From assembly GCF_003236175.1 (NCBI RefSeq), contig NZ_QKTW01000009.1:62001-126000 (forward strand): a stretch of DNA of 64,000 nt, written 5' to 3'. The position numbers and the translations under genes are program-made. Numbering within the stretch: position 1 is the first letter of the stretch; each line of letters begins with the position of its first letter. Of the stretch, positions 14,324 through 30,000 are shown piece after piece. The stretch is from Taibaiella soli. GTDB taxonomy: Bacteria; Bacteroidota; Bacteroidia; Chitinophagales; Chitinophagaceae. The notes under the pieces are model-generated. The model was given only the letters and a program-made list of their open reading frames with translations. It was not told the DNA's origin and made no database searches.

Positions 14324-14343
14324 GGCTACTCAAAAGAGTAGCC
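14324..14343. repeat. Hairpin overlapping the lipoprotein stop codon
   Basis: GGCTACTC and GAGTAGCC pair perfectly around an AAAA loop. It spans the stop codon of the lipoprotein gene on the minus strand. There is no adjacent T-run, so the role (weak terminator or 3'-end stabiliser) is uncertain. Confidence 0.5.
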
Positions 14344-14760: not shown

Positions 14761-14783
14761 TCCGCCGCAAAAATAAGGGCCTC

Positions 14784-14813
14784 CTCTAACTCCTCCAAAA
14801 GCAGGAGGATTTC
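14784..14813. repeat. CTCC/GGAG short palindromic element shared with 63287-63315
   Basis: An element that reads CTCTAACTCCTCC, then AAAAGCAGGAGGATTTCC closely resembles the one at 63287-63315. The core CTCCTCC/GGAGGA can fold into a small hairpin. Confidence 0.45.
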
Positions 14814-15053
14814 CGTCGTGAGTGTGCTGCTCGGAGTCTAAACATCTCGCGGCGCCGCCACGGCGGAAAGCTTAATTGGAGCACCGTCGATGAACGTAAT
14901 GCGTCGCAACGATGTTTAACCGGAGTGATAGTGTTGGAACCCAATGCTTTTATTAATAATGGAAATTGGCGATAGTGTGGGTAACTGGCAATTGTCCATT
15001 GTCAACTGTCAATTGGATTATTTACTTTTAGAATCGATTAAAAACTTCTGTTA

Positions 15054-17141
15054 ATGAAAAAATGGGCTTTACCCGCTATGGTACTTATGAGTGCGTCATT
15101 ATTGAATACCGCTTGCAACAATAGCGGTAGCAACAAACCATCCGGTGCAGACACCGTTGTGCAAAAATCAGAAGGCCAGGAAGGCAACTTCAAAGTAGAA
15201 GGTGAAGGTTTTGCTGACCTCCAGACCTTACGTTATGAAGTGCCGGGCTTTAGTGAACTGAGCCTGCAGCAGAAAAAACTGGCTTACTATTTATATGAAG
15301 CGGCACTAAGCGGTCGTGATATCATTTACGATCAACGTAGTAAATACGGTGTCATGCTGCGCAAAACGCTTGAAACCATTTACGGTACTTACAACGGCGA
15401 TAAAAACAGCGATAAATGGAAACAGTTTGCAGTGTATGCCGGCCGTGTATGGTTTAGCAATGGCAATCACCATCATTATGGCAATGAAAAATTCATTCCG
15501 GAATGTCCGTATGAATATTTTGCCGAGATCGTGAAAGCCAGTGATACCGCGAGTTTGCCAAAAGAACAGGGCGAAAGTGTAGATGCATTTTTGACACGCA
15601 TTAAGCCCGTTGTTTATGATCTGAAATTTGAACCAAAACTGGTAGATCAACGTCCGAATATCGACAACGTTGTCAATTCGTCTAACAATTTCTACGAAGG
15701 CGTAACTCAAAAAGAAGTAGAAGATTTCTATGCGAAATTTGATACCAAAGGTGATGCACCATCTTGGGGATTGAATAGTAAAGTAGTAAAAGAAAACGGC
15801 CAGATTGTTGAGCATGTTTGGAAAAGCGGTGGCATGTATGGTACTGCGATTGATAGAATGATTGGCTGGTTGCAAAAAGCCGTAACGGTGGCTGAAAATG
15901 ACCAACAGAAAAAATCACTGGAACTGCTGGTGAAATTTTACCAGACAGGCGATCTTAAAACATTTGACGATTACAGCATTGCATGGGTAAGCGATACAGC
16001 TTCTCGTGTAGATGTGGTGAATGGCTTCATTGAAGTTTATCTCGATGCCATCGGTAAAAAAGGTAGTTTCCAGAGCATGGTTTCTATCAAAGATCTGGAA
16101 GGTACTAAACGCATCAAAGCAATCGCAGATCAGGCACAATGGTTCGAAGATCATTCGCCGATCATGGATCAGCACAAGAAGAAATCAGTAAAAGGTATCA
16201 CTGCAAAAGCCATTACAGTAGTGGTGGAAAGCGGCGATGATGCACCGAGCACGCCAATCGGGGTAAACCTGCCAAATGCAGACTGGATCCGCAAAGAACA
16301 CGGTTCTAAATCAGTTTCCCTGAGCAATATCATTCACTCTTACAATATCGCAAGCGCCAAAAGCGGTCTGCTGGAAGAATTTGCGGTGAACGATACGGTG
16401 CTGAAACGTATGCAGCAATATGGCTCACTCGCATCTGACCTGCATACCGACATGCATGAGTGTATCGGTCACGCTTCCGGACAAATTAATCCGGGTGTGG
16501 AAACAACAGATAAAACGCTGAAAAACTATGCATCGACATTGGAAGAAGCACGTGCAGATCTCGTTGGTCTGTACTTTATCATGGATCAGAAATTGATTGA
16601 TCTTGGTGTAATGCCAAATATGGATGTAGCGAAAGCTGAATACGACAGCTATATGATGAATGGTCTGATGACACAGCTGACACGTCTGAAGCCAGGAGAT
16701 GATCTGGAAGAAGCACACATGCGCAATCGTCAGACGAATGCAATGTGGGCCTATGAGCACGGCAAGAAAGATAATGTAGTTGAATTCGTGAAAAAAGATG
16801 GCAAAACATATGTTCGTGTAAACGACTACAACAAACTGCGTGATCTGTTTGGTCAGTTGCTGCGCGAAATGCAACGCATCAAATCTGAAGGCGATTTCAA
16901 AGCCGGTAAAGCACTCGTTGAAACTTACGGTGTGAAAGTAGATCATACATTGCACAAAGAAATTCTGGAACGTTATGCAAAACTGAATATTAAGCCTTAT
17001 CGTGGTTTCATTCAGCCAAAACTGGTTCCGGTAATGAACGGTAATGAAATTACAGATGTGAAAGTAGAATATCCGGAAAGCTTCTATCAGCAGATGATGG
17101 AGTATGGTAAAAACTATGGTTTCCTGCCAGTGAAGAACTAA
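15054..17141 (+). CDS. Dipeptidyl peptidase III-like zinc lipoprotein (family M49)
   Basis: This 695-residue protein removes dipeptides from short peptides. The M49 zinc motif is HECIGH at 468-473, with a one-residue insertion relative to HExxH as the family requires, and the second motif is EEARAD at 497-502, supplying the third ligand. The N-terminus is a lipoprotein signal ending LLNTAC, so the enzyme is anchored outside the cytoplasm, as in Bacteroides DPP III relatives. The start at 15054 gives this signal directly. It is a single-gene unit with a strong terminator at 17168-17198. Confidence 0.92.
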   Translation: MKKWALPAMVLMSASLLNTACNNSGSNKPSGADTVVQKSEGQEGNFKVEGEGFADLQTLRYEVPGFSELSLQQKKLAYYLYEAALSGRDIIYDQRSKYGVMLRKTLETIYGTYNGDKNSDKWKQFAVYAGRVWFSNGNHHHYGNEKFIPECPYEYFAEIVKASDTASLPKEQGESVDAFLTRIKPVVYDLKFEPKLVDQRPNIDNVVNSSNNFYEGVTQKEVEDFYAKFDTKGDAPSWGLNSKVVKENGQIVEHVWKSGGMYGTAIDRMIGWLQKAVTVAENDQQKKSLELLVKFYQTGDLKTFDDYSIAWVSDTASRVDVVNGFIEVYLDAIGKKGSFQSMVSIKDLEGTKRIKAIADQAQWFEDHSPIMDQHKKKSVKGITAKAITVVVESGDDAPSTPIGVNLPNADWIRKEHGSKSVSLSNIIHSYNIASAKSGLLEEFAVNDTVLKRMQQYGSLASDLHTDMHECIGHASGQINPGVETTDKTLKNYASTLEEARADLVGLYFIMDQKLIDLGVMPNMDVAKAEYDSYMMNGLMTQLTRLKPGDDLEEAHMRNRQTNAMWAYEHGKKDNVVEFVKKDGKTYVRVNDYNKLRDLFGQLLREMQRIKSEGDFKAGKALVETYGVKVDHTLHKEILERYAKLNIKPYRGFIQPKLVPVMNGNEITDVKVEYPESFYQQMMEYGKNYGFLPVKN

Positions 17142-17144
17142 AGG

Positions 17145-17156
17145 AAACATCAGATG
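17145..17156 (+). repeat. AAACATCAGATG motif, copy after the DPP III gene
   Basis: The 12-base motif follows the stop codon at 17139-17141 by three bases. Exact copies are at 21489-21500, 30099-30110 (reverse), 31166-31177 (reverse) and 57527-57538. Confidence 0.6.
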
Positions 17157-17167
17157 AATTTTTGAAG

Positions 17168-17198
17168 GCCGGCTAGTCATTGACTAGCCGGCTTTTTT
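17168..17198 (+). terminator. Terminator of the DPP III gene
   Basis: GCCGGCTAGT pairs with ACTAGCCGGC around CATTG and is followed by TTTTTT. Strong rho-independent form. Confidence 0.9.
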
Positions 17199-17613
17199 AT
17201 GTCCGCTTTTACACAAATTATTTGGATTGAATTGCTTTACACACGGAGCAATTTTTAGCCACATTTAGGCCAACGAGAATATAAAAACGATGATGAATAG
17301 AATTTGTAAAATGGATTGTGAGAACGAAGTATGTCAGTTTTAAGTCTGGTAGCCAGTTTTGCCTAAATCGCACGGGGCATAGGTTCCCGGTAAGAAAAAA
17401 TGTACATCTGGAACAATAATCGGTACACCCGGAATTTTGAGAGTGTATAGATTCGTACTAGAAAATTTGAACAGTTTGTGCAAGTTTTTTCCAGGCCTGG
17501 ATGCGGGATACTTCAGTGTTAAACCCAAAGAAAAAATGATGCTGCGCAGCATACCGTAAACAATGCCGTTAACCCGAAAACGATACGTAGGGATGAACTA
17601 AAAAAAATATTTT
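17199..17613. other. AT-rich spacer at the left edge of the RiPP locus
   Basis: No convincing gene. A 17-codon ORF with three cysteines (17290-17343) and an open stretch at about 17388-17559 without a good start codon look like chance or decayed coding DNA. The first ~40 bases continue a similarity with 21530-21570, part of the duplicated boundary described in the findings. No clear promoter consensus precedes the precursor gene. Confidence 0.4.
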
Positions 17614-17862
17614 ATGAAATTGGAAAAAATGCAAGGGTCAAAATTTGAATCCTTTAAAGGAAATGAATTGCAGAGCACGTTTAGTGTATTGGGTGGGATG
17701 ATTTCGAACACTACAGAACCATCAAGCGGTAAATGCGATCAAATTAATGATAAAACGAATGATACCGGGACTATCGACGCAAACACTGGAAAGGGGATTG
17801 ATTCGCGTTATATTTCGTGTTCGATTGAAATGGGGTCGTTGAACGTTATTACTTCTGTTTAA
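17614..17862 (+). CDS. RiPP precursor peptide 1, grasp-with-spasm type (GG leader)
   Basis: This 82-residue precursor has a leader of about 28 residues (KFESFKGNELQ..FSVLGG), matching the double-glycine leaders cleaved by C39 peptidase-ABC exporters; cleavage is expected after Gly28. The ~54-residue core is rich in Asp, Asn, Thr, Ser and Gly and has two cysteines. Acidic and hydroxyl side chains are the groups that ATP-grasp maturases of this class join by ester or amide cross-links. It lies directly upstream of the maturation genes, separated by a hairpin. The family was assigned from the leader and context; the final structure is unknown. Confidence 0.75.
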   Translation: MKLEKMQGSKFESFKGNELQSTFSVLGGMISNTTEPSSGKCDQINDKTNDTGTIDANTGKGIDSRYISCSIEMGSLNVITSV

Positions 17863-17877
17863 TTGCATTAAAAATTG

Positions 17878-17905
17878 AGGCTGTCTCGCTTAATTGAGAC
17901 AGCCT
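17878..17905 (+). terminator. Attenuator-like hairpin between precursor and maturation genes
   Basis: AGGCTGTCTC (17878-17887) pairs perfectly with GAGACAGCCT (17896-17905) over an 8-base loop; the following TACTTTGTTTG is only moderately T-rich. This should reduce read-through and favour a precursor excess over the enzymes, a common RiPP operon arrangement. Confidence 0.65.
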
Positions 17906-17921
17906 TACTTTGTTTGAGATG

Positions 17922-19082
17922 GTTACCAAAAAAATTGTTTGCTGCATCTTAGCCTTTACTGGTGTTTTTGTAGTATTTGCACAAAAAAAGAAAGAAACGA
18001 ATTATCTAATTTATCACGATTGGATCAACAATGCGGAGTCGTTTTATTTTTTAGAAAGCAATTACGATTCCGCCGCATACTATTATAAGAAAGCGTTTAG
18101 CAACTTTGATTTCGTTTTTGTCAAAGACTGTATCATAGCTGCAGAATTAGCGGCTGCAAATAAAAAGAAAGAGGATTTTTTGTTTTTCACAACAAGAGGA
18201 TTTGAAAGAGGGTGGCGCCTCGAGGATATGACAAAGCTCGCATACACAGGCGGCAGCAGGTTCGTTCCTGTCAACGTTTTCAACTCACTGCTTACCGACA
18301 AGTCTCTGCACGACTATCTCGCTAAAGAATATCCTCTTCGAAGAAAAAAGTATCTCGCCAGCATCGAAGTGTCGTTACGGGAGAAATTGGTTGATATGTT
18401 TATGGAAGACGAGCTGAATAAAAATGTACACATGAAACAGGGTGAAAAATTTGAGGATAGGTATATGAAACATGCAAAAGTGGTTCAGAAAAACAATTTG
18501 AGGCTCGATTCAATAGTTAAGAAAGTTGGATTCCCCGGGGAGAAATTAACTGGAATAGAAAACGACCATTTGATGGAAGAACTTGGCTGTAAAGGGAAAG
18601 ACCCCCTGTGGCAATACGATCACTATTATTACAAATATGCTGACAGTCTGAACATTGACAGAAAGATGTTTTCGTTGGATGAGGATGAATATACTTGTAA
18701 AATATTATACGTGCTATTGATTCACGCTTCATGTTCATATTGGAAATATCAAAGCGTGTTTCCGAAAAATATCGCTACTGGGAACATTCATCCTCGTGAC
18801 GTTGCTTTCCTGCTGGATTTTATGATAAATGACGGGCCTGCTGCAGTTCGCAGAAAGCATACTGCGATAAAGAAATATTTAGGTTGTTCTATTGATACAA
18901 ACGCAAAACGCAATTACACATCAGGCCTGGACGTTGTTGACGCCCCAGAAGAAGTATTCTATGATGTAAATCAATACCGGAAGAAATGGCACATTGTTCC
19001 AATTGAAGTGGATATTGCTAAGCGCAAATATGAATTAGAAGCCGGTGTGCAATTATTTTTTGGCTTCTTTAATCATTTATAG
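17922..19082 (+). CDS. Exported protein of unknown function in RiPP locus (386 aa)
   Basis: This has no confident family. A signal peptide (KIVCCILAFTGVFVVFAQ) is followed by a mature domain beginning with a TPR-like helix pair (ESFYFLESNYDSAAYYYKKAF). The middle is Lys/Asp/Tyr-rich and probably helical, with an aromatic C-terminus. The ATG at 17922 is preferred to 17910 because it sits directly before a short n-region. It occupies the same position relative to its precursor as the 299-residue exported protein at 22294-23193, suggesting a role in recognition, immunity or surface presentation of the product. Codon use is more AT-rich than in flanking housekeeping genes. Confidence 0.6.
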   Translation, partial: VTKKIVCCILAFTGVFVVFAQKKKETNYLIYHDWINNAESFYFLESNYDSAAYYYKKAFSNFDFVFVKDCIIAAELAAANKKKEDFLFFTTRGFERGWRLEDMTKLAYTGGSRFVPVNVFNSLLTDKSLHDYLAKEYPLRRKKYLASIEVSLREKLVDMFMEDELNKNVHMKQGEKFEDRYMKHAKVVQKNNLRLDSIVKKVGFPGEKLTGIENDHLMEELGCKGKDPLWQYDHYYYKYADSLNIDRKMFSLDEDEYTCKILYVLLIHASCSYWKYQSVFPKNIATGNIHPRDVAFLLDFMINDGPAAVRRKHTAIKKYLGCSIDTNAKRNYTSGLDVVDAPEEVFYDVNQYRKKWHIVPIEVDIAKRKYELEAGVQLFFGFFNHL

Positions 19083-19086
19083 CGCT

Positions 19087-20112
19087 ATGATTTTTATACA
19101 CAGCGATTCAGATGAAAACAGTACGGATGACGTAATGGATTGGTTGTTTTATCTAGGCGACAGAGAAATTCTGAGATTAAACGACGCAATATGCATAGAA
19201 AAAATGACGCACTTCATAGGTGACAGCCTTGGTAATTCATATATCCGAACGAGTAGGGGAGAAGATAATCTATTTAGAGAAATTGAATCTAATTGGTATC
19301 GTCGTGGTGGCTATATGTTTTCACAAAACAGTGTGCCCGCTAGTTTGTTTGAATACTCGACTATAGCGAGTGCGATCAATCAATATTATTATAAAGAGTC
19401 ACAACAGGTTTTTGATACCTATTATCACGATCTTTTTCATCGTTTAAATGGGCTAAACAGATTTTCCGATAACAGAATTAACAAGATTGAAGTCTTGTCG
19501 AAAGCATTTCGACAAGGTTTGAAAATCCCGAATACGATTGTTACTAACAGTTATTCAGATCTCATGGATTTTGCCAAAGAGAAGAACGCGATTATTACTA
19601 AAGCGATAAGTAATGGGGTTGTCCGTTTTATGGTAAATGAGGAAGCAGAAATGGTTTTTGGTATAGGTACGTCAAAGCTTACTTATAATGAATTAGTCGC
19701 GCAGAGCTCTAAATATGTTGATGATCATCTAGCTTTTTCTGTAGCGCAGGAATATGTGGAGAAGCAGATTGAGATTCGCAGTTTTTACATAGGCGGTTCC
19801 TTTTTTTCAATGGCAATTTTCTCACAGTCCAATGAAAAAACAGCACTCGATTATCGACGTTATGATTTTGAGCGCCCCAACCGGTTTATACCATTTCAAT
19901 TACCTGATGACATTGAGGTAAAACTACATTCACTCATGGAAGACATGAGTATGAATTCCGGCTCTTTTGATATCATTTATACTCCAGAAAAGGAGTATGT
20001 TTTTTTGGAAGTAAATCCTATTGGGCAATACCAGTGGTTAACAAAACATTGCAATTATTTTATCGACAGAGAAATTGCTTCATTTCTATTAAAATTTGAT
20101 AAGGAGGTTTAA
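19087..20112 (+). CDS. gwsG: ATP-grasp peptide maturase, grasp-with-spasm system
   Basis: This 341-residue ATP-grasp ligase would activate Asp/Glu side chains of the precursor core as acyl phosphates and join them to Ser/Thr or Lys. The N-terminus MIFIHSDSDENSTDDVMDWL is typical of the GwsG group. The middle holds the ATP-grasp lid region (NAIITKAI). The C-terminal metal/ATP site is FLEVNPIGQY, with the paired Glu and Asn ligands. The ATG at 19087, four bases after the upstream stop, gives this N-terminus; an ATG at 19045 would overlap the previous gene. An AAGGAGG follows near its end for the next gene. A truncated paralogue lies at 23190-23486. Confidence 0.85.
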   Translation: MIFIHSDSDENSTDDVMDWLFYLGDREILRLNDAICIEKMTHFIGDSLGNSYIRTSRGEDNLFREIESNWYRRGGYMFSQNSVPASLFEYSTIASAINQYYYKESQQVFDTYYHDLFHRLNGLNRFSDNRINKIEVLSKAFRQGLKIPNTIVTNSYSDLMDFAKEKNAIITKAISNGVVRFMVNEEAEMVFGIGTSKLTYNELVAQSSKYVDDHLAFSVAQEYVEKQIEIRSFYIGGSFFSMAIFSQSNEKTALDYRRYDFERPNRFIPFQLPDDIEVKLHSLMEDMSMNSGSFDIIYTPEKEYVFLEVNPIGQYQWLTKHCNYFIDREIASFLLKFDKEV

Positions 20113-20114
20113 TT

Positions 20115-20327
20115 ATGGATATAGAGAAAATAAAGGAGATTATGAGGCAACATCCTGGTTATTTTCAACTATGTGCCGATAATATGAATATCTCAATTGT
20201 TGACCAAAAGCAGCCTGTTGAACCACAAGCCAAAGTGACCTTTGGTCACTATAATTCACAAAGAGAAATCTCCTATCCTTTTTATAAGCCGATCAGCAAA
20301 GTGATCGATATAAGTAAACTGAAATGA
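20115..20327 (+). CDS. Small protein between the two maturases (70 aa), unknown
   Basis: It starts two bases after gwsG, with AAGGAGG seven bases ahead of its ATG, an unusually strong ribosome site for Bacteroidota. Its stop overlaps the start of gwsS (ATGA), so all three are translated as a unit. The product is soluble, with a helical N-terminus (IEKIKEIMRQHPGYFQLC) and a Tyr/Pro/Lys-rich second half. No GG leader or Asp/Thr-rich core, so it is not an obvious third precursor. A leader-binding adaptor or a small accessory subunit of the maturases is a plausible guess. Confidence 0.75.
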   Translation: MDIEKIKEIMRQHPGYFQLCADNMNISIVDQKQPVEPQAKVTFGHYNSQREISYPFYKPISKVIDISKLK

Positions 20328-21403
20328 CAAAGTCTTTAAAGTTATTTGCAAATTGTATTCCAGTAAGGGGAAATCAGCGGGGGATCATTTGTGACCTTCA
20401 GCGAAATGAATGGCATTTAGTGCCAAGTTCGCTAATTGATTTATTTGACACGCGCGGGGTAATGAGAACTGATACGTCAGAATTTGATGACGAAAGCCAA
20501 GAAGCTTTGGAGTACTATAGAAGTTTTCTCCTGGAGAAAGAACTAGCGTTTTATTGTGATGCCGCAGAAATTGAGTTGTATCCGGGTCTATCTATGAGGT
20601 GGGATTTCCCGTCGGTAATTTCCAACTGCATTTTAGATTTTGATGGTAACAATGAGCTAGCGTTATCAGTGATCGTTCAGCAATTGAGCGACCTAAATTG
20701 TCACTATATTCAGATGCGTTTTTTTGTAGAAATAGATTTTGAGAAATTAATAAACCTTATTGCTGTAGTCAATTTATCTACGATTAAGGCAATTGATTTT
20801 GTATTGAAGGAAAACGCAACGACAGGCTTCTATGATAGGCTTGAAAATATCGTTCAGCAAAATCGAAAGATTAGAAGTGTAGTGATACATGATGCTATTG
20901 ACAATCGTTTCGTCGCACAAGCTAGCAATGCTTTTGGTTCAATTGTTTCGGTGCGAGAGAGTATAAATGAGTTGCACTGTGGCATAATCCATCATTCCTA
21001 TTTTTCCATGAACGTCGAGACCTTCACCGAATCCCAACACCACAATACCTGCCTCAATCGCAAAATCTCCATCGATGCAGAAGGCAATATCAAAAACTGT
21101 CCATCCATGAGCGAGAGCTTTGGAAACATACAAGATACAACACTTAAAGAAGCCGTAGAAAAGCCTGGATTCAAGAAGTATTGGGATATTACCAAAGATC
21201 AGATTACAGTTTGCAAAGACTGCGAGTTTCGGCATATCTGCACCGATTGCAGAGCCTATCTCGAAAACCCTGAGGATGATTACAGCAAGCCGTTGAAATG
21301 CGGTTATAACCCATACACCTGCGAATGGGAGGAATGGAGTACACATCCGCTGAAGCAAAAGGCGATAGAGTATTATGGCATGCAGGAATTGGTGAGAAAA
21401 TGA
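20324..21403 (+). CDS. gwsS: SPASM-domain peptide maturase, grasp-with-spasm system
   Basis: This 359-residue protein has a C-terminal SPASM domain: Cys243 and Cys259, then the CxxC-x5-CxxC block at 297-309 and CGYNPYTC at about 323-330, ligands for auxiliary Fe-S clusters. The N-terminal 240 residues lack the CxxxCxxC motif of radical SAM enzymes, so a classical SAM radical reaction is not supported; the family pairs such SPASM proteins with ATP-grasp ligases. The first two thirds use A/T-ending codons, while from about 21000 onward codons become clearly C-ending, suggesting a recombination junction inside the gene. Stop overlaps the ATG of the truncated exporter at 21400. Confidence 0.82.
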   Translation: MTKSLKLFANCIPVRGNQRGIICDLQRNEWHLVPSSLIDLFDTRGVMRTDTSEFDDESQEALEYYRSFLLEKELAFYCDAAEIELYPGLSMRWDFPSVISNCILDFDGNNELALSVIVQQLSDLNCHYIQMRFFVEIDFEKLINLIAVVNLSTIKAIDFVLKENATTGFYDRLENIVQQNRKIRSVVIHDAIDNRFVAQASNAFGSIVSVRESINELHCGIIHHSYFSMNVETFTESQHHNTCLNRKISIDAEGNIKNCPSMSESFGNIQDTTLKEAVEKPGFKKYWDITKDQITVCKDCEFRHICTDCRAYLENPEDDYSKPLKCGYNPYTCEWEEWSTHPLKQKAIEYYGMQELVRK

Positions 21404-21501
21404 ATCCCACATTGAGACGATTCCCTCACGACATACAGCGCAACACAATGGATTGCGGCGCCACCTGCCTCCGCATAAAGTTAAACGGAAACATCAGATG
21501 A
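21400..21501 (+). pseudogene. 5' stump of a C39 peptidase-ABC exporter gene
   Basis: The frame opens with ATG overlapping the gwsS stop and encodes RRFPHDIQRNTMDCGATCLRI, nearly identical to the first ~22 residues of the intact exporter at 23676, including the catalytic Cys of the C39 peptidase. After CGCAT the similarity stops and the frame runs on through unrelated DNA (AAACGGAAACATCAGATG) to a stop at 21499-21501. About 60 bases match the intact copy with only a handful of differences. It is the scar of a duplicated cluster that lost its exporter. Confidence 0.85.
21489..21500 (+). repeat. AAACATCAGATG motif, copy at the duplication scar
   Basis: The context GGAAACATCAGATGAATTT is almost identical to that at 17142-17160 after the DPP III gene, and both are followed by a GCTTTTTTATGTC stretch. 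This indicates duplicated flanking DNA. Confidence 0.65.
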
Positions 21502-21574
21502 ATTTGTGAGCGCATTATCCGTCGGGGCGAGCTTTTTTATGTCTGTTTTTTTGTTTTGGAATCATAAATGCTTG

Positions 21575-21663
21575 AAGGGGCACATTACGCTTTGAAGAGA
21601 ATAAATATTTGAAAAAAGTCTTTTCCACTGAGGGACATAGATGGTTTGACGTAGTTCGGCGAT
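21575..21663 (+). pseudogene. Possible fossil of a SusD/RagB-like gene
   Basis: One frame between 21575 and the stop at 21661 reads RFEENKYLKKVFSTEGHRWFDVVRR in part. The EGHRWFDVVR stretch is the highly conserved C-terminal signature of SusD-family outer-membrane lipoproteins. A +1 frame change just after would continue with DNKLDLGYG before further stops. No start, no neighbouring susC. It is read as decayed debris inside the duplicated RiPP region; chance resemblance cannot be excluded. Confidence 0.35.
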
Positions 21664-21934
21664 AACAAGCTAGACTTGGGGTACGGGTAGCAGGAGGTGC
21701 GTTGAATACTGATTGCGATTTGGTTAGCTATCCGTAATATTTGGCACAGTAATTGATACATTGTTTTAAGCGGGATTTTTTTGAATAAGCTCAATTCTGA
21801 GGGATGAAAAAAATGTACGATGGTATAGTTCTACTTGTCGAAATTTAATGGACTTGGACCAATCCCTATCTGGCGTTTCCCTTCGTGAAAAATTGTACCA
21901 TGTACACAATAGTTGCTTAGTATTTCTAATTGTT

Positions 21935-21968
21935 AGGGCGGCGAAAGCAAGCCGCCCTATATTCTTTT
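21935..21968 (+). terminator. GC-rich hairpin upstream of precursor 2
   Basis: AGGGCGGC pairs with GCCGCCCT around GAAAGCAA, followed by ATATTCTTTT. A related but weaker hairpin (GGGTGGC...GCCCCCC) lies just after precursor 2 at 22252-22270, so a precursor-hairpin unit may have been duplicated here too. Confidence 0.6.
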
Positions 21969-21995
21969 CTAAAGCAGCATTTCTAAAAACGCATT

Positions 21996-22244
21996 ATGAA
22001 AAAATCAGTAAAATCAAAATTATACAAAATGAATTCGTACAAAACGAACGTTGATAACGTATTCGGAGGCGGTTGTCAAACAGGCGGAAGTAGTGGCAAC
22101 CCAGATGATTACCTGTCAGGCACTTTGAGTGCCGACACTACGACAAATTACAGCAACGATGCCACGCTTTGTGACGGTAAAGATTCTGCTCCTTCCATTG
22201 CGGCGGCACCTCAAAGCAAAAGCATGTCAACGATAATTGCTTAA
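21996..22244 (+). CDS. RiPP precursor peptide 2 (GG leader), divergent from precursor 1
   Basis: This 82-residue precursor has a basic leader KSVKSKLYKMNSYKTNVDNVF and then Gly-Gly-Gly at 24-26, consistent with C39 cleavage after Gly25. The core is rich in Ser, Thr, Asp and Gly (DDYLSGTLSADTTTNYSND) and, like precursor 1, contains two cysteines. Length is identical to precursor 1, although the sequences share little beyond the leader logic and the hydrophobic Ile/Val-Ala/Val C-terminus. The next genes are an exported protein, a broken ATP-grasp gene and the only intact exporter, so its modification probably depends on the upstream GwsG/GwsS. Confidence 0.7.
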   Translation: MKKSVKSKLYKMNSYKTNVDNVFGGGCQTGGSSGNPDDYLSGTLSADTTTNYSNDATLCDGKDSAPSIAAAPQSKSMSTIIA

Positions 22245-22293
22245 TACTTATTGGGTGGCGAGAAACAAGCCCCCCATTCCACTTCTCTACACA

Positions 22294-23193
22294 ATGAAAG
22301 TGATTCGATTTTCTGTTATTCTGTGTTTGCTGTTTTTTGCCATGAGGGCATCCGCTCAAAATGCTCGAATAATGTTTTATGACAGTTGCGCATCTCAAAT
22401 TAACAGGTGTGTTAACGAAAAAAATTATGGTGCAGCTGTTTCTTTTGATAAGAAGTTAAATCAGAAACACCAGCTATTGACAACAAGTTTGTTTGAGTTT
22501 TGGGGTTTATCGTTGTTGGCGGAAGATTCAGCCGGATTTTATCAGGCAAGTCGTTTATGGATTTTAAATTCGGCATTGCCCATAAAAACAATAATCGAAA
22601 ATTATGGTAAGCTATCAACGAGAGTATATGCCCTCAATTATACACCGGAAATAATTGCTCAGAGCAAAATATTTGGCCCGGTATATGAGCGGCTACAGCA
22701 AGAGGAGTCACCACTTATTGTCAGAGCAAAGAATACTTTAGATTGGCAATGGATCATATTTCTGGAGGGAATTTTAACGAGTAATATTGATTATCGTTAC
22801 CTGCCGGATTCCGCATTTGCAGGAAGTGAAGGGAAGATGAAGGGAATCATCTTTATAGACTCTCTTCATTTAATGCGCGTCAATTCATTCATTGCAAGTA
22901 ATGGATTTCCGACAATGAGTAGACTAGGGATGAATTGGGGAGAAATACAGCCGATATTAAAGCATTGCATTGAGCTTGTTGGGCTAGAAGAAGAGAAACG
23001 CTCAGACTATTTTTTAGTTATATGGAAATCCCTTTTCCCGAAAATGTATCAAGCCGTTTTAGACTGGGAAATGGAACCGGATTTTTACAGGTTTCTATAT
23101 CGTTCATTAGAGCGTTCTCTTACCAAGGTCGGACATTCTGAGAAAATGGATTTTTTTAAGCAATATGAACTTCATAAAACCACGGCACAATGA
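22294..23193 (+). CDS. Exported protein of unknown function in RiPP locus (299 aa)
   Basis: A clean signal peptide (MKVIRFSVILCLLFFAMRASAQ) supports the ATG at 22294 rather than the 22237 frame start, which overlaps the precursor. The mature part is predicted mainly helical with aromatic and Leu-rich segments. No motif known to me. It holds the same position as the 386-residue protein at 17922-19082 (after a precursor, before an ATP-grasp gene), and both have a short helical-repeat-like start (NYGAAVSFDKKLNQ here). Function unknown; a locus-specific periplasmic or surface partner of the peptide is possible. Confidence 0.65.
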   Translation: MKVIRFSVILCLLFFAMRASAQNARIMFYDSCASQINRCVNEKNYGAAVSFDKKLNQKHQLLTTSLFEFWGLSLLAEDSAGFYQASRLWILNSALPIKTIIENYGKLSTRVYALNYTPEIIAQSKIFGPVYERLQQEESPLIVRAKNTLDWQWIIFLEGILTSNIDYRYLPDSAFAGSEGKMKGIIFIDSLHLMRVNSFIASNGFPTMSRLGMNWGEIQPILKHCIELVGLEEEKRSDYFLVIWKSLFPKMYQAVLDWEMEPDFYRFLYRSLERSLTKVGHSEKMDFFKQYELHKTTAQ

Positions 23194-23615
23194 TTTGGAT
23201 TCAATCGACAGATGACGATTTGTCAACAAATATGGTGATTGACTGGTTCGATTTGCTTAAGGTAGACTGGTGCAGAACAAATGATGCAATTGTTCAGTTT
23301 AAAAATTTTGCGATCAGTAACACGAAAAATGATTTTCAAATTTCATTTAAAGATGTTGCAGAACATCAACATAATATTCGCTTGTCTGATATAGCAGGAT
23401 ACTGGTATCGACGCGGACATCTTAGTTTCGGCATCACGTCAAACGCTGAAAGCAGGGAATGGTGTCATCCGGCGGAGTGCAATTAGAATCCGTATATAGC
23501 TAAATGGAAAAATGAAGATGGTTATGTATTACTTGCTGAGTGTGGCATAAGAAGTACCGGACACGGCTTTATTTATGACAAGGAGAAAATTGAAACCATA
23601 AATGCCGAATTATGA
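23190..23615 (+). pseudogene. Truncated ATP-grasp maturase gene (gwsG remnant)
   Basis: The first ~85 codons encode an N-terminus clearly related to GwsG at 19087 (MIWIQSTDDDLSTNMVIDWF and later YWYRRG). The frame then diverges, hits TAG at 23484-23486, and continues open for 42 codons to 23615 with an unrelated but protein-like tail (KWKNEDGYVLLAECG...). The ATP-grasp catalytic region is absent, so it cannot be active. The tail looks like the end of another gene joined by deletion. The start overlaps the upstream stop by four bases, as in a functional operon, pointing to recent decay. Confidence 0.75.
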
Positions 23616-23679
23616 TGATTTACAATCAATAGTTTCCGATCAGTCATTTTTGAGAAACAATAAACGTATCCAACATTGA
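23602..23679 (+). CDS. 25-codon ORF coupled to the exporter start
   Basis: ATG at 23602 opens a 25-residue frame (MPNYDDLQSIVSDQSFLRNN...) whose TGA overlaps the TTG start of the exporter (TTGA). It may be the end of a deleted gene or serve only to couple translation. No family is recognised. Confidence 0.25.
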   Translation: MPNYDDLQSIVSDQSFLRNNKRIQH

Positions 23680-25871
23680 AACGTTTCCCCCACGACATAC
23701 AGCGCAACACAATGGATTGCGGCGCTACTTGCCTCCGCATCATTGGCAGATACTATGGTAAAGTACTGCCATTAGAATATCTGCGCCAGCAAAGCAATAC
23801 AAGCCGCGATGGAGCGAGCATGCTGGGTCTTTCGAAAGCGGCCGAGCAAGTAGGTTTTCGTACCATGGCAGTAAAGATCAGCTTTGAGCAGTTGCAGAAT
23901 GATGCGCCGCTGCCGTTGATCGCACATTGGAATCAGAACCATTTTGTAGTTGTTTACAAGGTGATGAAAAATAAAGTGTTTGTATCCGATCCGGGAAACG
24001 GGTTGCTTACTTATACACGTGCGCAATTCATGCAGCATTGGATTGGCGCAGTTGTTGCTGAACAGAAGGCTGAAGGTATTGCCCTGCTACTGGAGCCCAC
24101 ACCGGAGTTTGAAACGATTGCAACACCCGGCGAAGAAAAAGAAACAATCAATACCCGGGCATTTCTGTTTCATTACATAAAGCCATACCGGAAGTTGCTT
24201 GGACAGATTATGCTGAGTCTTGTTGCGGGAAGTGTTTTGCAATTATTTGTTCCGTTTCTGACACAGAATATTGTTGATACAGGCATTTATAAGAAGGACA
24301 TAAGTTTTATCTGGTTAGTGCTGATTGCACAGTTGATGCTTACATTAGGTCAGGTGGCGCTGGAAGCTATGCGTAGCTGGATATTATTGCACGTGAGTAG
24401 TCGCATCAATATCTCGTTGGTGGCAGATTTCTTTATCAAGCTGATGAACCTGCCTATTCGTTATTTTGATACAAAGCTCACGGGGGATCTGATGCAGCGG
24501 ATCGGAGATCATCAACGCATCGAATCTTTTTTAACCAGCACATCGCTTAATGCCATTTTCTCTTTGTTTACACTGGTGTTATACGGTTTGGTTTTGGTCT
24601 ATTACAATGTAACGCTGTTTACTGTATTCATGATCGGCAGCGCGTTATACGTAGGTTGGATACTCTTCTTTCTAAAGCGGCGGGAAAAACTCGACTATAA
24701 ACGATTTCAGCAGGCTAGTGAAACCAATAGCAAGGTGATGGAACTGATCAGCGGCATGCAGGAAATTAAACTGCACAATGCCGAACAGCAAAAACGCTGG
24801 GGTTGGGAACGTATTCAGGTGAAATTGTTTCGTATCAGTTTGCAATCACTTTCGCTGGAGCAGGTGCAATCAATCGGGTCACGCATAATCAACGAGCTTA
24901 AAAATATTTTCACGACTGTTATTGCTGCCAAACTTGTAATAGACGGCCAACTTACACTCGGTATGATGTTGTCGGTGAGTTACATCATTGGTCAGCTCAA
25001 CAGCCCGATTCTTCAATTGGTTGCTGTTGTGAAATCCTGGCAGGATGCGCGTATCAGCCTTGATCGTCTTACGGAAATACACGTTAAAGAAGAAGAGACA
25101 ACGATCCAATCGCAAAAAATGCCTGTACCCGGCAATCATAGCCTTAATCTAAAGGAGGTTAGTTTTGCCTATGATTCTTTTGCCGTGCCGGTTTTGCAAA
25201 AATTAAATTTGCAGGTGCCTGCTGGTAAAGTGACTGCTATTGTGGGCAGCAGCGGCAGTGGTAAAACAACATTGCTTAAATTATTGATGCGCTTTTATGA
25301 ACCAACTGAAGGTGAAATATCAGTAGGTGGTACTAAGCTCTCCAATACAGATTTGCAGGAATGGCGGAATCTATGTGGCGTGGTGATGCAGGAAGGTTTT
25401 ATTTTCAGTGATACGATAGCAGGAAACATTGCTGTTGGCGAAGATCAGCCTGACTGGCAACGATTGAATGAAGCCGCTGAAATCGCAAATATCAAGGATT
25501 TTGTCACATCGCTTCCGCTGGGTTTTATGACGAAAATAGGCGCTGAAGGATTGGGTACGAGTACGGGACAAAAACAACGATTGCTCATCGCACGGGCCGT
25601 ATACAAGAATCCCGAGATTATCTTTTTTGATGAAGCCACCTCTGCACTTGATGCGAACAACGAAAAAACAATCATGAAGCATTTGGAAACTTTTTATGAA
25701 GGCAAAACTGTTGTGGTTGTTGCGCATCGGTTGAGTACCGTCAAAAATGCCGATCATATCGTGGTGCTGGAGAAGGGCCACATTGTGGAGGAAGGGACGC
25801 ATCGCTCGCTTACAATGGATAAGGGACATTATTATCATCTGGTAAAAAATCAGCTGGAATTAGGCAATTAA
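23676..25871 (+). CDS. Peptidase-containing ABC exporter (C39 bacteriocin type)
   Basis: This 731-residue exporter removes GG leaders and exports the peptide. The N-terminal C39 peptidase has the triad Cys15 (MDCGATC), His89 (NHFVVVYK) and Asp105 (VSDPGNG). A six-helix membrane domain spans about 165-450. The ATPase has Walker A GSSGSGKTT at 524-532, signature TSTGQKQR in place of the usual LSGGQ, Walker B IIFFDEATSALD, and H-loop AHRLST. Start is TTG, the only candidate; it is supported by the matching N-terminus in the stump at 21400. Followed 11 bases later by the HlyD-like adaptor. Serves both precursors in all likelihood. Confidence 0.93.
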   Translation: MKRFPHDIQRNTMDCGATCLRIIGRYYGKVLPLEYLRQQSNTSRDGASMLGLSKAAEQVGFRTMAVKISFEQLQNDAPLPLIAHWNQNHFVVVYKVMKNKVFVSDPGNGLLTYTRAQFMQHWIGAVVAEQKAEGIALLLEPTPEFETIATPGEEKETINTRAFLFHYIKPYRKLLGQIMLSLVAGSVLQLFVPFLTQNIVDTGIYKKDISFIWLVLIAQLMLTLGQVALEAMRSWILLHVSSRINISLVADFFIKLMNLPIRYFDTKLTGDLMQRIGDHQRIESFLTSTSLNAIFSLFTLVLYGLVLVYYNVTLFTVFMIGSALYVGWILFFLKRREKLDYKRFQQASETNSKVMELISGMQEIKLHNAEQQKRWGWERIQVKLFRISLQSLSLEQVQSIGSRIINELKNIFTTVIAAKLVIDGQLTLGMMLSVSYIIGQLNSPILQLVAVVKSWQDARISLDRLTEIHVKEEETTIQSQKMPVPGNHSLNLKEVSFAYDSFAVPVLQKLNLQVPAGKVTAIVGSSGSGKTTLLKLLMRFYEPTEGEISVGGTKLSNTDLQEWRNLCGVVMQEGFIFSDTIAGNIAVGEDQPDWQRLNEAAEIANIKDFVTSLPLGFMTKIGAEGLGTSTGQKQRLLIARAVYKNPEIIFFDEATSALDANNEKTIMKHLETFYEGKTVVVVAHRLSTVKNADHIVVLEKGHIVEEGTHRSLTMDKGHYYHLVKNQLELGN

Positions 25872-25881
25872 AATATCGCAC

Positions 25882-27246
25882 ATGCCTTACGATCAATCAG
25901 AAATTGCGGCAAATCAAAATATCGGTCCGATTCTGGAAATACAAACGCCTGTCTATGCGCCGGAAGCTGTAGATATGCTGGAACGCGTACCATCCGGATT
26001 AATGCGGTGGGGTACTCTTTCGATCATTTTCGTGATGGGTTTGCTGTTGCTCATTGCTGTCTTTGTGAGGTATCCGGACACGTTGGAAGGGGTGGCCACG
26101 GTCACAACAGATCCGTTGCCGATTCAACTCAAATCAGCAGCAAATGGAAGGATCACGCGGCTGTTTGTTCGCGACAACGACCTGGTGTCGAAAGATGCAG
26201 TCATTGCCGAGATTGAAAACAACACTGGTTTTGTAAACATTTATATGCTACAACAAAAAAGTGACAGCATTACCGCCGCTATAGAACAGAATGATTTGCC
26301 ACGTTTAGGGCGCATTAGTAAGGATAATCTTCAATCGCTCGGTGAAGGTCAGACGGCCTATAATCAGTTGTTGCAAAATATTTCAGCTTACCTGCTCGTG
26401 AAGCAACAGCATATTTTCGCGAAGCGGGTAGACAATATTCGGGTGCAAATTGGGCAATACCAAAAGCTTTCGAACGTCACGACAGAAGAAACTGTACTAA
26501 TTAATGAAGAGCTGAAACAGGCGGATGAACGATTCAAGGCGAATGAGAAATTATTCAACGAAAAAGTAATCAGCAGGCAAGAATATTACGAGGAAGCCGC
26601 GAAGCTGCGCCAGAAACAATTGACATTGGAACAGCAGCGAAGAGCGAAGATTCAAAATACGATCAGCATTTCAGACAATAGCAAACAATTGTTCGAGATG
26701 ACCTATAATAAAGAGGAAAAGGAAAATACACTGGTATTGGCCATACAGGAGCAGTTGCGAAATCTTCAGAATTTTATTGCGGGCTGGCGGAGGCAATACC
26801 TGATCGTCGCCCCATATTCCGGACATGTTTATTTTGAACGGCCTTTGCAAACAAACGAACTGGTGACAGCAAATGATGCATTATTTTCTATTGTGCCAGA
26901 TAAGTTTCACTACCTCGCGTATGTGCAGTTGCCCGCTGCGGGTCTGGGAAAGATCAGGAAAGGACAGAATGCGCATTTGTTGTTAGATCATTTCCCTTAT
27001 AATGAATATGGCTACCTGGAAGGCGTTGTGAAAGAAGTAAGCGCGATTCCTCAAAGTGTAAGTAGTGCGGCGCAGGGAAGCACAGTTACCTATCGCGCCT
27101 ATATACAATTGCCGGATTCCCTGGTGAGCAGTTATCACAATAAAATTCCGTTTTCGCCGGAGATGTCGGGTACTGCAAGAATTATTACAAAAGACAGGAA
27201 TTTACTGCAGCGCTTGTTCTCATTTGTGAGTAAAGCCGACAAATAA
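25882..27246 (+). CDS. HlyD-family secretion adaptor
   Basis: This 454-residue periplasmic adaptor has an N-terminal cytoplasmic stretch, one membrane helix (about residues 45-67), a lipoyl-like half (PIQLKSAANGRITRLFVRDN), a long coiled-coil region (about 130-290), the second lipoyl half (IVAPYSGHVYF) and beta-barrel domains. With the ABC exporter it forms the inner part of a type I secretion channel across both membranes; an outer-membrane TolC-type partner is not in this window. Eleven-base spacing to the exporter indicates one operon. Confidence 0.9.
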   Translation: MPYDQSEIAANQNIGPILEIQTPVYAPEAVDMLERVPSGLMRWGTLSIIFVMGLLLLIAVFVRYPDTLEGVATVTTDPLPIQLKSAANGRITRLFVRDNDLVSKDAVIAEIENNTGFVNIYMLQQKSDSITAAIEQNDLPRLGRISKDNLQSLGEGQTAYNQLLQNISAYLLVKQQHIFAKRVDNIRVQIGQYQKLSNVTTEETVLINEELKQADERFKANEKLFNEKVISRQEYYEEAAKLRQKQLTLEQQRRAKIQNTISISDNSKQLFEMTYNKEEKENTLVLAIQEQLRNLQNFIAGWRRQYLIVAPYSGHVYFERPLQTNELVTANDALFSIVPDKFHYLAYVQLPAAGLGKIRKGQNAHLLLDHFPYNEYGYLEGVVKEVSAIPQSVSSAAQGSTVTYRAYIQLPDSLVSSYHNKIPFSPEMSGTARIITKDRNLLQRLFSFVSKADK

Positions 27247-27341
27247 AATTCACCTTTCTACGCTGTCCAAAATATAAAAAATAAAATTTATTTAAAGGGA
27301 TGGCTTACTAAATAATTGCGCTTAATTTTGGCCCTGAATCG

Positions 27342-28463
27342 ATGAGCAGGAAAAATATTGCGATTATATGTGTGTCCAAAGGTTTTGGCGGTCTTGAGCT
27401 GAATACGCTTAAGCTCGCTGAGTGGCTCCGTAAATATGGCTGGAATGTAAGTCTGATGGTTGCTAAAGACTCGGAAATGGAACGAAACGCAGGAAGCTAT
27501 TGCGATTCGGTATTTACGACCGATGTTCACGGCACTTTCGGAAAAATGAAAGCAATCCGGAAGTGGCTCAAAGTTTTTGATGCTTCCGTACTTTTTACAC
27601 CACACAATAAAGACATTGCCGCAATATCGCTCTACAAGCGTCTGGTCAATAATCGCGTAAAGCAGGTTTATCAGCAGCAAATGCAGATTGGCATGAGCAA
27701 GAAGGACCTGATTCATACTTTCCGCTACGGTAAAATCGATCTTTGGATAAGTCCGCTCAATTATCTGCGGGAAGAAGCTGCACTTCAAACAAGAGTGCCG
27801 TTACGCAAAATTGCCGTTGTGCCTTTAGGAATTGAAGTTGGTCGCTTTCTCAATAATCCAGTCTCCAGAACTGACGCACGCGAAAAACTTTCGCTGCCGC
27901 AAGAACCAAAAATGATTGGCGTTTTGGGACGGATAGATCCCAAAAAAGGACAGGACTTCCTGATTAAAGCGATTGATCATCTGCGAAATAATCCCTCGCA
28001 GAATTACCATCTGTTGATCATGGGGGCTATTACGCCAAATGAAGGCGATCATTATCTCAAATCATTGTATCAGCTGGTGGCGGATAATAATCTTACCGAT
28101 CGTGTTCACTTTAGAGAGTCAACTTCTGACGTTGAGCTTTTCTACTCAGCTATCGATGTGTTCGGCATGCCTTCGCATGGAGAGACTTTCGGAATGGTGA
28201 CTATTGAAGCAATGGCATCAAGGAAACCTGTTGTTGGCACCAATCGTTGCGGTACCAAAGAAATTCTGCAAGACGGCAAACTGGGTTATCTCTATGAATA
28301 TGAAAACATGGATGATTTCACCCAAAAGCTGGCTGCACTTGAGCATAACGCGCATCTGCCGGAGATGTTGGAAGCTGCCCGCATTGAGGTAATTCAGAAG
28401 TATACCAGTGAGATCATGTGTCGCGGTCTGGATGAAGTAATGACAAAGCTTATCGAAAAATAA
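27342..28463 (+). CDS. Glycosyltransferase family 4 (GT-B)
   Basis: This 373-residue soluble GT-B enzyme has an N-terminal Rossmann half with the glycine loop KGFGGLELNTLKLA for the acceptor. The C-terminal donor-binding half has GRIDPKKGQDFLI, and the E-x7-E region lies in GETFGMVTIEAMASRKPVVGT. GT4 enzymes retain configuration and use nucleotide sugars. It follows the RiPP adaptor gene after 95 bases, in the same direction. That gap and a possible -7 box (TAATTTTG at 27323-27330) allow separate transcription, so glycosylation of the peptide is possible but unproven; lipopolysaccharide or capsule assembly is the ordinary alternative. Confidence 0.85.
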   Translation: MSRKNIAIICVSKGFGGLELNTLKLAEWLRKYGWNVSLMVAKDSEMERNAGSYCDSVFTTDVHGTFGKMKAIRKWLKVFDASVLFTPHNKDIAAISLYKRLVNNRVKQVYQQQMQIGMSKKDLIHTFRYGKIDLWISPLNYLREEAALQTRVPLRKIAVVPLGIEVGRFLNNPVSRTDAREKLSLPQEPKMIGVLGRIDPKKGQDFLIKAIDHLRNNPSQNYHLLIMGAITPNEGDHYLKSLYQLVADNNLTDRVHFRESTSDVELFYSAIDVFGMPSHGETFGMVTIEAMASRKPVVGTNRCGTKEILQDGKLGYLYEYENMDDFTQKLAALEHNAHLPEMLEAARIEVIQKYTSEIMCRGLDEVMTKLIEK

Positions 28464-28465
28464 AA

Positions 28466-28490
28466 GCCGGTCAAAGCGACTTCAACCGGC
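28466..28490. terminator. Hairpin between convergent GT4 and M56 genes
   Basis: GCCGGT and ACCGGC pair around a 13-base loop in the short gap between the two convergent stops. No good T-run on either strand, so it is a weak terminator at best. Confidence 0.4.
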
Positions 28491-28509
28491 ACAAAGGGAA
28501 TTTTAAGCT

Positions 28510-30000
28510 TTATTCGGTAACAAGACTTGCCTGATGATTTTTTACAGTCACGTTCAGGCCCATAAATCCAAAGAGATTAGAAGTAGTGCTTGCGACAACT
28601 TTTCCGTGTTGCGTTGCCGGCGTAAATTTTAATGATTCATCAGAAAGATAGAAATCAATTCGTTTATTGATGGCGTCCGCGGCAGAATTTTCTATCTGGT
28701 CTGTTTTTTCCAGGTCCTTAGGATTGGCGGTTATGCCTGGTTTGCCAGCGATATCGTCTACCGTGTATGCAATACCTTGTTTGTTTACACTTTCTTCAAA
28801 ATAAACCAGGCGGCCTTGTTCGTCAATAACGGGATTGGTAACTGAGATTACATAATCGCCGTCGGGAAGTTTTCCCATGTCGGATTTTATGAATTTGAAA
28901 AGATCCTCACCTGGAGTGGCAGAAACGCCTTTGTATACAGCCTTTTGACTTACTTCATTGTCTTCCATTATTGGATTGCCATTTACCTTTATTGGATAAG
29001 GGAGTCGCTGCGTAATCATGCTGCTGATTTTGCCGGTCGTAGCATCCGTTACCTGGAGTGTGTCAAATGAACTGTTGCTCATCTCAAACACATTGCCTTT
29101 GTAGGTGATCTTATTTCCTTCTTTTTTGCGTTCGTTGTTGTACTGCGATTTAGAGCAGCAAACAACGGTGACGATAAGGAGCGGCGCTACCAGCAGATAT
29201 TTGGCGCGGGACAATTTTGAAGATGCAGACTGGGTAATCATAAGTACACGTTTTTTTATGGGTGAATGATAGAATGAATGACTGAAAGAGGGTGTTTGCT
29301 GCAACATGAATTGATTCAGCAGAAAGTTTCCGTATTGTTTGGGCGCTACAGGAACGGAAGCGTCAGCCTGATATTCGTGTACCAGTATTAATCTGCTTCG
29401 ATATAAATAAACAAGTGGGTGGAACCAAAGAACGATCTGGAGTAATTGCAACAGGCAGAGGTCAACTGCGTGAAACTGTTTACAGTGCGCCTTTTCATGG
29501 TTCAACACGATTTCATATTCTCCGGTATCCCAGTTGTTTTCCGAGCTGATAAAAATGAAATGAAAAATGGAAAACGGCCCATGCTGCAGGTTGGTGCGTA
29601 CAATCGTCCAGTTGTCTTCTTTTGTTTTTTCACCACGGCGGTAATATTTTGAAATGATGAAAATTTCGCGCAGCAAGAAGAATACCGAAATACCCGCTCC
29701 AATCAAATAAGTCCAAAACAGAATCTGCGTCCAGGGGATCGTAATATTAGCTGCAGGCGTTATCGTGTCAACTAGTGCTTGTCTTGAATGCTGACTGCGA
29801 ATTTGCAATGCGTTGCTAAGAGAATTAGCAGATGTTGTTGCGGGCGACCATTTAATGAAAGGCGCTACCAGTCCGGAGATTAACGTTACAAGTAAATAGG
29901 ATCTATTCCAGCTGTGATGCGTATCCCGCTTTAGGAAAAGGTCAAAGCACACGAGGCTAACCAACCATATAGCCGTGCAATTGATGAGGAATGTAATCAT
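28510..30000 (-). CDS. BlaR1-like M56 membrane metallopeptidase
   Basis: This 496-residue protein has four membrane helices in the first ~300 residues, with the zinc site HEKAH (HExxH) followed by HEYQAD, the third-ligand motif of the M56 BlaR1/MecR1 peptidases. The C-terminal ~190 residues are a periplasmic sensor-like region of unknown ligand and lack a penicillin-binding domain, so beta-lactam sensing is not supported. It probably cleaves or triggers release of the BlaI-type repressor encoded just upstream. The 141-base gap to blaI contains the palindromic copy of the AAACATC motif (30096-30110). Confidence 0.85.
   Translation of the reverse strand: MITFLINCTAIWLVSLVCFDLFLKRDTHHSWNRSYLLVTLISGLVAPFIKWSPATTSANSLSNALQIRSQHSRQALVDTITPAANITIPWTQILFWTYLIGAGISVFFLLREIFIISKYYRRGEKTKEDNWTIVRTNLQHGPFSIFHFIFISSENNWDTGEYEIVLNHEKAHCKQFHAVDLCLLQLLQIVLWFHPLVYLYRSRLILVHEYQADASVPVAPKQYGNFLLNQFMLQQTPSFSHSFYHSPIKKRVLMITQSASSKLSRAKYLLVAPLLIVTVVCCSKSQYNNERKKEGNKITYKGNVFEMSNSSFDTLQVTDATTGKISSMITQRLPYPIKVNGNPIMEDNEVSQKAVYKGVSATPGEDLFKFIKSDMGKLPDGDYVISVTNPVIDEQGRLVYFEESVNKQGIAYTVDDIAGKPGITANPKDLEKTDQIENSAADAINKRIDFYLSDESLKFTPATQHGKVVASTTSNLFGFMGLNVTVKNHQASLVTE

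Follow-up and report, generated by a model that had tools for sequence, protein, structure and literature searches.

Whether two unlike peptide precursors at one locus are served by one set of maturation enzymes is the question raised by a grasp-with-spasm locus, for ribosomally synthesised and post-translationally modified peptides (RiPPs), in the window, by which we mean the whole stretch of 64,000 nucleotides (nt) of Taibaiella soli DNA analysed here (contig NZ_QKTW01000009.1, positions 62,001 to 126,000). The original prediction had both precursors processed by a single GwsG/GwsS set and exported by a single ABC protein. Judged by its gene content, the locus is instead two different grasp-with-spasm units in tandem, with one complete exporter in common, and the reading we favour, at a probability of about 0.68, is that cassettes have been exchanged and stacked between conserved anchors, leaving two tandem cassettes at one address. 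Read along the window, unit 1 is followed by a seam, made of an exporter stub and a copy of the left flank, and then by unit 2 with the full exporter and an adaptor, all genes of the locus lying on the + strand (G, C and L numbers denote genomes, contigs and loci; ORF, open reading frame; GG, double glycine):

17139-17210, +, left anchor R, lying 3' of the M49 peptidase gene and holding a terminator-like hairpin (-26.2 kcal/mol, z -5.65), from alignment to 21482-21550
17614-17862, +, precursor 1, an ORF of 82 aa with GG at residues 27-28
17876-17907, +, hairpin between precursor 1 and the accessory gene, a possible attenuator (fold -21.1 kcal/mol, z -6.38)
17910-19082, +, accessory 1 (ATG at 17919), whose start resembles a signal peptide by eye, a divergent DUF6624 relative by family alignment
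19087-20112, +, gwsG1, ATP-grasp peptide maturase (TIGR04192, 252.1 bits, cut-off 230)
20115-20327, +, small protein of 70 aa, an ORF in the gap immediately before the SPASM gene, placed like the LPL family of PMC8939145
20324-21403, +, gwsS1, SPASM-domain maturase (TIGR04193, 342.4 bits, cut-off 175; PF13186 present)
21398-21476, +, exporter stub, the first ~26 codons of a C39-ABC gene (ATG 21400), 90% identical to 23662-23740
21482-21550, +, second, diverged copy of R right after the stub, by local alignment to 17139-17210
21996-22244, +, precursor 2, an ORF of 82 aa with a GG leader; relative at L067 8599-8877 in G139 C63
22294-23193, +, accessory 2, with a signal-peptide-like start (by eye), a very distant accessory-1 homologue by profile comparison
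23190-23486, +, gwsG2 remnant, the N-terminal ~82 codons and then gwsS2 sequence to a TAG (TIGR04192, 33.1 bits, E 3.5e-8)
23457-23585, +, gwsS2 remnant, ~43 codons from the C-terminal portion with an in-frame TAG at 23484, from matches to the GwsS of L082 and L223
23676-25871, +, C39 peptidase-ABC exporter, the only complete copy at the locus, with C39 (PF03412, E 1.6e-36), ABC-membrane (PF00664) and ABC (PF00005) domains
25882-27246, +, HlyD-type adaptor (PF13437, 59.6 bits, E 5.8e-16, cut-off 22.2; TIGR01843, 109.3 bits, E 2.1e-31, below its cut-off of 208.65)

This inventory agrees with the original prediction in naming two 82-residue GG-leader peptides, an ATP-grasp ligase, a SPASM protein, a single complete C39 peptidase-ABC exporter and a HlyD adaptor in one direction, and the profile search it had proposed for 19087-20112 and 20324-21403 bears out the grasp-with-spasm class, both maturases exceeding the curated cut-offs of the ATP-grasp and SPASM models. 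The class, defined by TIGR04192/TIGR04193, is graspetide branch 5 of PMC8939145 and, by an equation of our own, apparently group 14 of PMC13097080. The two precursors were also rightly said to differ, their alignment scoring 28 against a shuffle mean of 29.4, with no similarity above shuffles. Neither matches an NCBIfam or Pfam family at E<=1, which we do not take as defining because precursors of this branch mostly go unrecognised by models (8 clusters known and 79 new in the part of PMC8939145 considered here).

The proposal of a single GwsG/GwsS set for both precursors fares differently. Unit 1 (17614-21403) comprises a precursor, a DUF6624-like protein, GwsG, the small protein and GwsS, only the exporter being absent. 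Unit 2 keeps its own precursor (from 21996) and accessory gene (from 22294) and runs on into the full exporter, but little is left of its gwsG and gwsS. Its gwsG remnant covers positions 2-76 of the TIGR04192 profile and matches residues 1-82 of the L223 GwsG at 38%, and its gwsS remnant matches the GwsS of L082 (E 1.2e-10) and L223 (E 4.6e-9), with values of about 1e-9 to 1e-11 over L067/L223 and L082, against E 0.17 or worse for GwsS1. Both unit types occur in the related genome G139, on separate contigs and with unit 2 complete: C115, of the unit-1 type, carries a precursor (its leader 39% to that of precursor 1 over 56 aa), the first accessory type, GwsG, a small protein, GwsS and an exporter start at the contig end, and C63, of the unit-2 type, carries a precursor, the second accessory type, GwsG, GwsS, an OmpA-like gene, the ABC exporter and HlyD. 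The shared set is therefore unsupported, because the GwsS2 remnant is of the L067/L223/L082 kind and not of the GwsS1 kind and because a complete relative of unit 2 exists in G139; the anatomy gives precursor 2 a unit of its own, which would once have had a different GwsG and GwsS. Precursor 2 is probably an orphan rather than a confirmed substrate of the surviving set, processing by GwsG1/GwsS1 being possible.

The seam between the units speaks for stacking. The stub, 79 nt long in a repeat search of the window, lies right behind gwsS1 and is followed by the copy of R, which aligns to R with a gapped local score of 48, compared with 29 for the best of 2000 mononucleotide shuffles and 37 for the best of 3144 other stretches of the window. 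Within it, 26 nt (92%) and 20 nt (90%) align without gaps, the two blocks standing in consistent order (the copy from 21484 against 17140), and the hairpin of R is not kept in the copy (z 0.45). A further break may lie within gwsS1 itself: compared with L021 its N-terminal 225 aa are 39% and its C-terminal 134 aa 78% identical, with GC content at third codon positions (GC3) of 0.36 and 0.53, and the more conserved 3' third thus differs in composition. A GC3 change point at codon 215 (0.35 to 0.54, p 0.0085 before correction for 7 genes; the six others p>=0.22) fits a junction there. The SPASM part of GwsS is, however, simply the more conserved one in nearly all comparisons.

The same type of seam is found in several relatives, which suggests that peptide genes have been swapped and stacked like cassettes. 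In G139 the unit on C63 has an exporter stub upstream (73 nt aligned, 86%). L205 repeats 329 nt at 96.7% identity, comprising the gwsS 3' end and the exporter 5' end, with a pseudo-radical-SAM gene (TIGR04150) upstream, and L120 has an exporter stub followed by a copy of the upstream region of the precursor. In L218 the stub precedes a 61-nt copy (92%) of the sequence upstream of the first precursor, the upstream unit carrying thioredoxin-type and VKOR/C39-type genes; a transposase-like ORF (by eye; 5722-6045) lies directly behind this stub. At L171 a copy of the gwsS 3' end runs into R, which is repeated at 94% over 342 nt. L135, in genome G382, carries an R copy of 91% over 547 nt, reaching to about the start of each precursor, and a copy of the gwsS 3' end and exporter 5' end of 85% over 370 nt; it also repeats the decay seen in the window, with a GwsG N-terminus followed by the last 37 GwsS codons (340-376, 89%) and with precursor and accessory gene open. 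The window and L135 are the only two cases of this truncation pattern.

The most extended example is an array in G456 (L129/L130, G456:C20:4001-36000), where six stubs stand within 13 kb, each with a GG precursor behind it and five of the six with a lipoprotein gene directly before. Blocks of 420-510 nt made of stub, promoter and leader are 79-92% identical between units, the cores average 30% and the lipoproteins 26% over 9 ORFs, two of which are unrelated ORFs of similar length. Two of the lipoproteins were checked and fall to DUF4221 and DUF5128/DUF4934.

If stubs were random pieces of pseudogenes, internal parts of the exporter should be left behind as well. We compared matches to the 44-aa exporter N-terminus with those to the adjacent 44-aa segment that holds the catalytic His/Asp, counting as short an open frame of at most 120 aa. 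Across the 195 genomes of the family (own included) 13 of 107 N-terminal matches and none of 85 internal ones were short (p 6e-4), the shortest internal frame being 127 aa, in a frameshifted gene of G149; removing two contig edges and this frameshift leaves 10/104 and 0/85 (p 0.002). Over the 395 genomes of the class they are 17/150 and 4/136 (p 0.0065), six of the 17 belonging to one array. An origin of stubs as random pseudogene pieces is thus disfavoured by the internal-segment control in the family, and only weakly at class level. That every short C39 frame is a stub was rejected, several being contig edges, frameshifts or stand-alone peptidases.

A second count used named loci, the best 80 of 496 from a GwsG alignment, chosen regardless of stubs. 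Nine were flagged and six counted as carrying a seam duplication of the gwsS 3' end or exporter 5' end (L171, L177, L205, L218, L222 and L223; L163, L157 and L188 set aside, and L150 and L194, exporter starts cut by a contig end, not counted). All but L171 have an exporter stub, five in total, upstream of the gws unit and on the same strand, and in these five loci the exporter follows the unit, L222 showing only the exporter start before its contig ends. Short repeats of the gwsS 3' end whose other copy either closes an unrelated ORF or lies outside every ORF above 100 aa were seen in L188 (68 nt, 94%) and L157 (105 nt, 83%); these copies, at L188 8120-8187 and L157 20534-20636, lie away from the gws unit and are possibly further seams. 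In L163 some 12 kb contain three complete sets of GwsG and GwsS together with five short ORFs that resemble precursors, and the notion that tandem loci always carry a stub was rejected on this locus.

In the mechanism that we propose, whole cassettes of precursor, cognate accessory gene and maturases would be exchanged between strains by recombination at conserved flanks, R acting as the left anchor and the exporter 5' end as the right one, together with the 3' end of gwsS or of whichever gene stands last before the exporter. Where a new cassette was added without removal of the old, the exporter stub would be left as a seam, after which one unit would lose its enzymes. GwsG1/GwsS1, together with the small protein, would modify peptide 1, and the C39-ABC/HlyD pair would cleave it after GG and export it, side-chain ester or amide links in the product being the expectation of the class. 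Precursor 2 and accessory 2 would form an orphan module, export of both products through the one exporter being putative.

Several points weigh against this scheme. The window R is short (about 70 nt) and gapped, and the GC3 break in gwsS1 has a p value of only 0.0085, uncorrected for the 7 genes. The genus is represented by this genome only, giving no strain-level comparison, and exchange between strains is something we infer from divergence only. With the G456 array counted once, the class-level comparison falls to 12/145 against 4/136 (p 0.07), and with the array dropped to p 0.11; two short class-level frames, in G325 and G267, extend into the internal segment as well. In most of the 80 named loci no seam was counted, two (L199 and L224) contain fragments of the internal segment only, and L163 has its three gws sets with no exporter stub. 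As the exporter in the window has no ATG, export itself may also be impaired, and DUF6624 may be a biosynthetic enzyme according to part of PMC13097080. The address has its own weakness, in that the M49 peptidase and glycosyltransferase genes that bound the locus are paired in one other genome only, other genes following M49 in G001 and G005.

The rival that survives best holds that unit 1 was inserted once and that unit 2, apart from exporter and HlyD, is a plain pseudogene remnant, with nothing general to be drawn. gwsG2 and gwsS2 are clearly broken, the R copy has lost its hairpin, and 74 of the 80 named loci have no counted seam, though L157, L163 and L188 show other repeats of the gwsS 3' end. 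This is hard to square with the recurrence of the same seam type, and in G382 of the same truncation pattern, in other genera, or with short exporter fragments that in the family are all 5' ends, and we consider a single event improbable, if by no means far-fetched. Next comes the proposal that GwsG1/GwsS1 modify both precursors and the one ABC protein exports both, giving two products. Both precursor ORFs are open and of GG type beside one complete exporter, precursor 2 and accessory 2 have stayed open though their enzymes are gone, and Bacteroidetes loci whose several unrelated precursors are predicted to use one ATP-grasp in common are described in part of PMC8939145; the leaders of the two precursors differ, however, and both the relative of precursor 2 in G139 and the GwsS2 remnant go with a GwsG/GwsS type other than that of unit 1, which makes shared enzymes rather unlikely. 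That the stub itself is functional and kept for that, as a small protein or as an RNA or DNA element such as a recombination site, is very hard to credit, since stubs range from ~26 codons (window) to ~120 (L177), some with stops, and neither a recombinase-size ORF between the window stub and precursor 2 nor an Rfam match in 14000-30000 was found, even if the six G456 stubs are open (89-117 codons stop to stop) and the 4 measured are 86-91% identical.

Stacking between conserved anchors remains our preferred reading, and under it the address of the locus is, from its flanking genes, the interval between the M49 peptidase gene and the glycosyltransferase gene. Among 29 genomes searched, the glycosyltransferase has a match at E<=1e-50 in one other, G011. 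Because there it stands side by side with the M49 peptidase gene and no peptide locus separates them, the glycosyltransferase at the end looks like a flanking gene outside the locus; the extent given originally, 17614-28463, takes in all the locus genes correctly and reaches too far in including it. GwsG has matches in 20 of the 195 family genomes, 10 of them above cut-off, and a search of the own genome gave no copies beyond the two in this locus. Megablast of unit 1 against plasmids gave no match. A promoter pattern of Bacteroidota type matches 3 times in the 64 kb against a chance mean of 3.55, none placed to serve a precursor. A palindrome similar to the hairpin behind precursor 1 follows the precursor of L021 (7549-7583).

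Between gwsG and gwsS, where the passages of PMC8939145 considered place the LPL family or proteins that substitute for it, an open segment of at least 53 codons, stop to stop, is present in all 18 pairs examined. GwsS1 has no radical-SAM motif CxxxCxxC anywhere in its sequence, and none of the 18 GwsS has it within the first 200 residues. In the exporter gene the codon matching the ATG of the stub (21400) is ACG at 23664, the nearest start being TTG at 23676; the stub, L067 and L021 likewise have a TTG at the corresponding position. Elsewhere in the own genome, L127 (G000:C22:100000-117000) holds a second C39-ABC and HlyD pair with a 1030-aa gene upstream and is probably another peptide locus. 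Similar proteins of ~120 aa, which we take to resemble four-helix 23S-IVP proteins, lie beside exporter genes inside different gws loci (L021 11119-11487 and L177 14812-15168).

Each precursor is accompanied by one accessory gene. The two proteins show no pairwise similarity, and profile-profile comparison relates them at 95.5% probability over 237 columns. Of the 27 members of the accessory-1 alignment, 3 hit PF20329 (best E 1e-9), and the protein of the window is not one of them; its AlphaFold2 model is all helix (predicted local distance difference test, pLDDT, 85), and a fold search gave no PDB match at E<=0.001. The model of accessory 2 was poor (pLDDT 52) and was not used. Accessory 1 has matches in 13 genomes of the family and accessory 2 in 3, the latter with its relative on G139 C63 at E 2.2e-36, and a protein of either family lies within 4 kb of gwsG in 33 of the 80 named loci. 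Around accessory-1 matches, gws genes occur in only 1 of 15 stretches (L021), a life without gws genes that fits an orphan and also any other role; a distant accessory-1 relative without gws genes is present in the own genome (L034, G000:C23:42000-60000). PADLOC found no match for the precursors or accessories. The window accessories would belong to cluster 23 of PMC8939145, part of which describes these proteins as often bearing lipoprotein signals and as of unknown function. Presumably cognate to their precursors, they may provide self-protection or immunity.

In its ATP-grasp and SPASM proteins above cut-off, its GG precursors, the small protein before the SPASM gene, the accessory gene, C39-ABC and HlyD, the locus is like other grasp-with-spasm loci, and class, small protein and precursor diversity are already known from PMC8939145 as far as considered here. 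It differs from the known loci in its two different units in tandem, the exporter stub between them and the lost maturases of one unit. The relevant passages of PMC8939145 and PMC13097080 describe tandem precursors, duplication and exchange, and do not describe exporter stubs or tandem whole units; nor did the titles and abstract starts of open-licence papers show exporter stubs being described as RiPP-cassette seams. The closest parallels are the orphan toxin-immunity modules of contact-dependent inhibition (CDI) and Rhs systems, tandem displaced modules tagged by a fragment of the conserved delivery gene, with a variable module on a constant carrier, for which recombination at conserved sequence has been proposed (parts of PMC3150448). 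The window likewise contains a displaced variable module with a fragment of a delivery gene. Unlike CDI/Rhs, the carrier fragment here is the 5' end of a peptide exporter, not part of the toxin's own gene, and the module includes RiPP maturases, toxicity and immunity being putative here. The immunity-gene arrays of V. cholerae type VI secretion also grow by successive module addition with one part lost and another retained, and a section title of PMC5361080, likewise seen in part, names homologous recombination without specific integration sites; the window differs in retaining precursor with accessory and losing enzymes.

More tentatively, and with a confidence that falls a little short of even, the 5' end of the Bacteroidota C39 exporter could serve generally as a docking seam, where entire peptide-maturation modules, even ones belonging to different RiPP classes (grasp-with-spasm, pseudo-radical-SAM, thioredoxin/VKOR-linked and lipoprotein-linked), are stacked and swapped. 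Stubs would then be the scars, and arrays of precursor and accessory would correspond among RiPPs to orphan toxin-immunity modules. Should trade in cassettes take place at fixed seams, stubs of the exporter would be a cheap marker for displaced peptide modules, and would help to pair each precursor with its own accessory protein and enzymes and to find orphan precursors that co-location would give to the wrong enzymes. Such trade would also help to explain the pattern of closely similar Bacteroidetes ATP-grasp loci with unrelated precursors in the part of PMC8939145 considered, and the idea that DUF6624-like proteins confer immunity would become testable.

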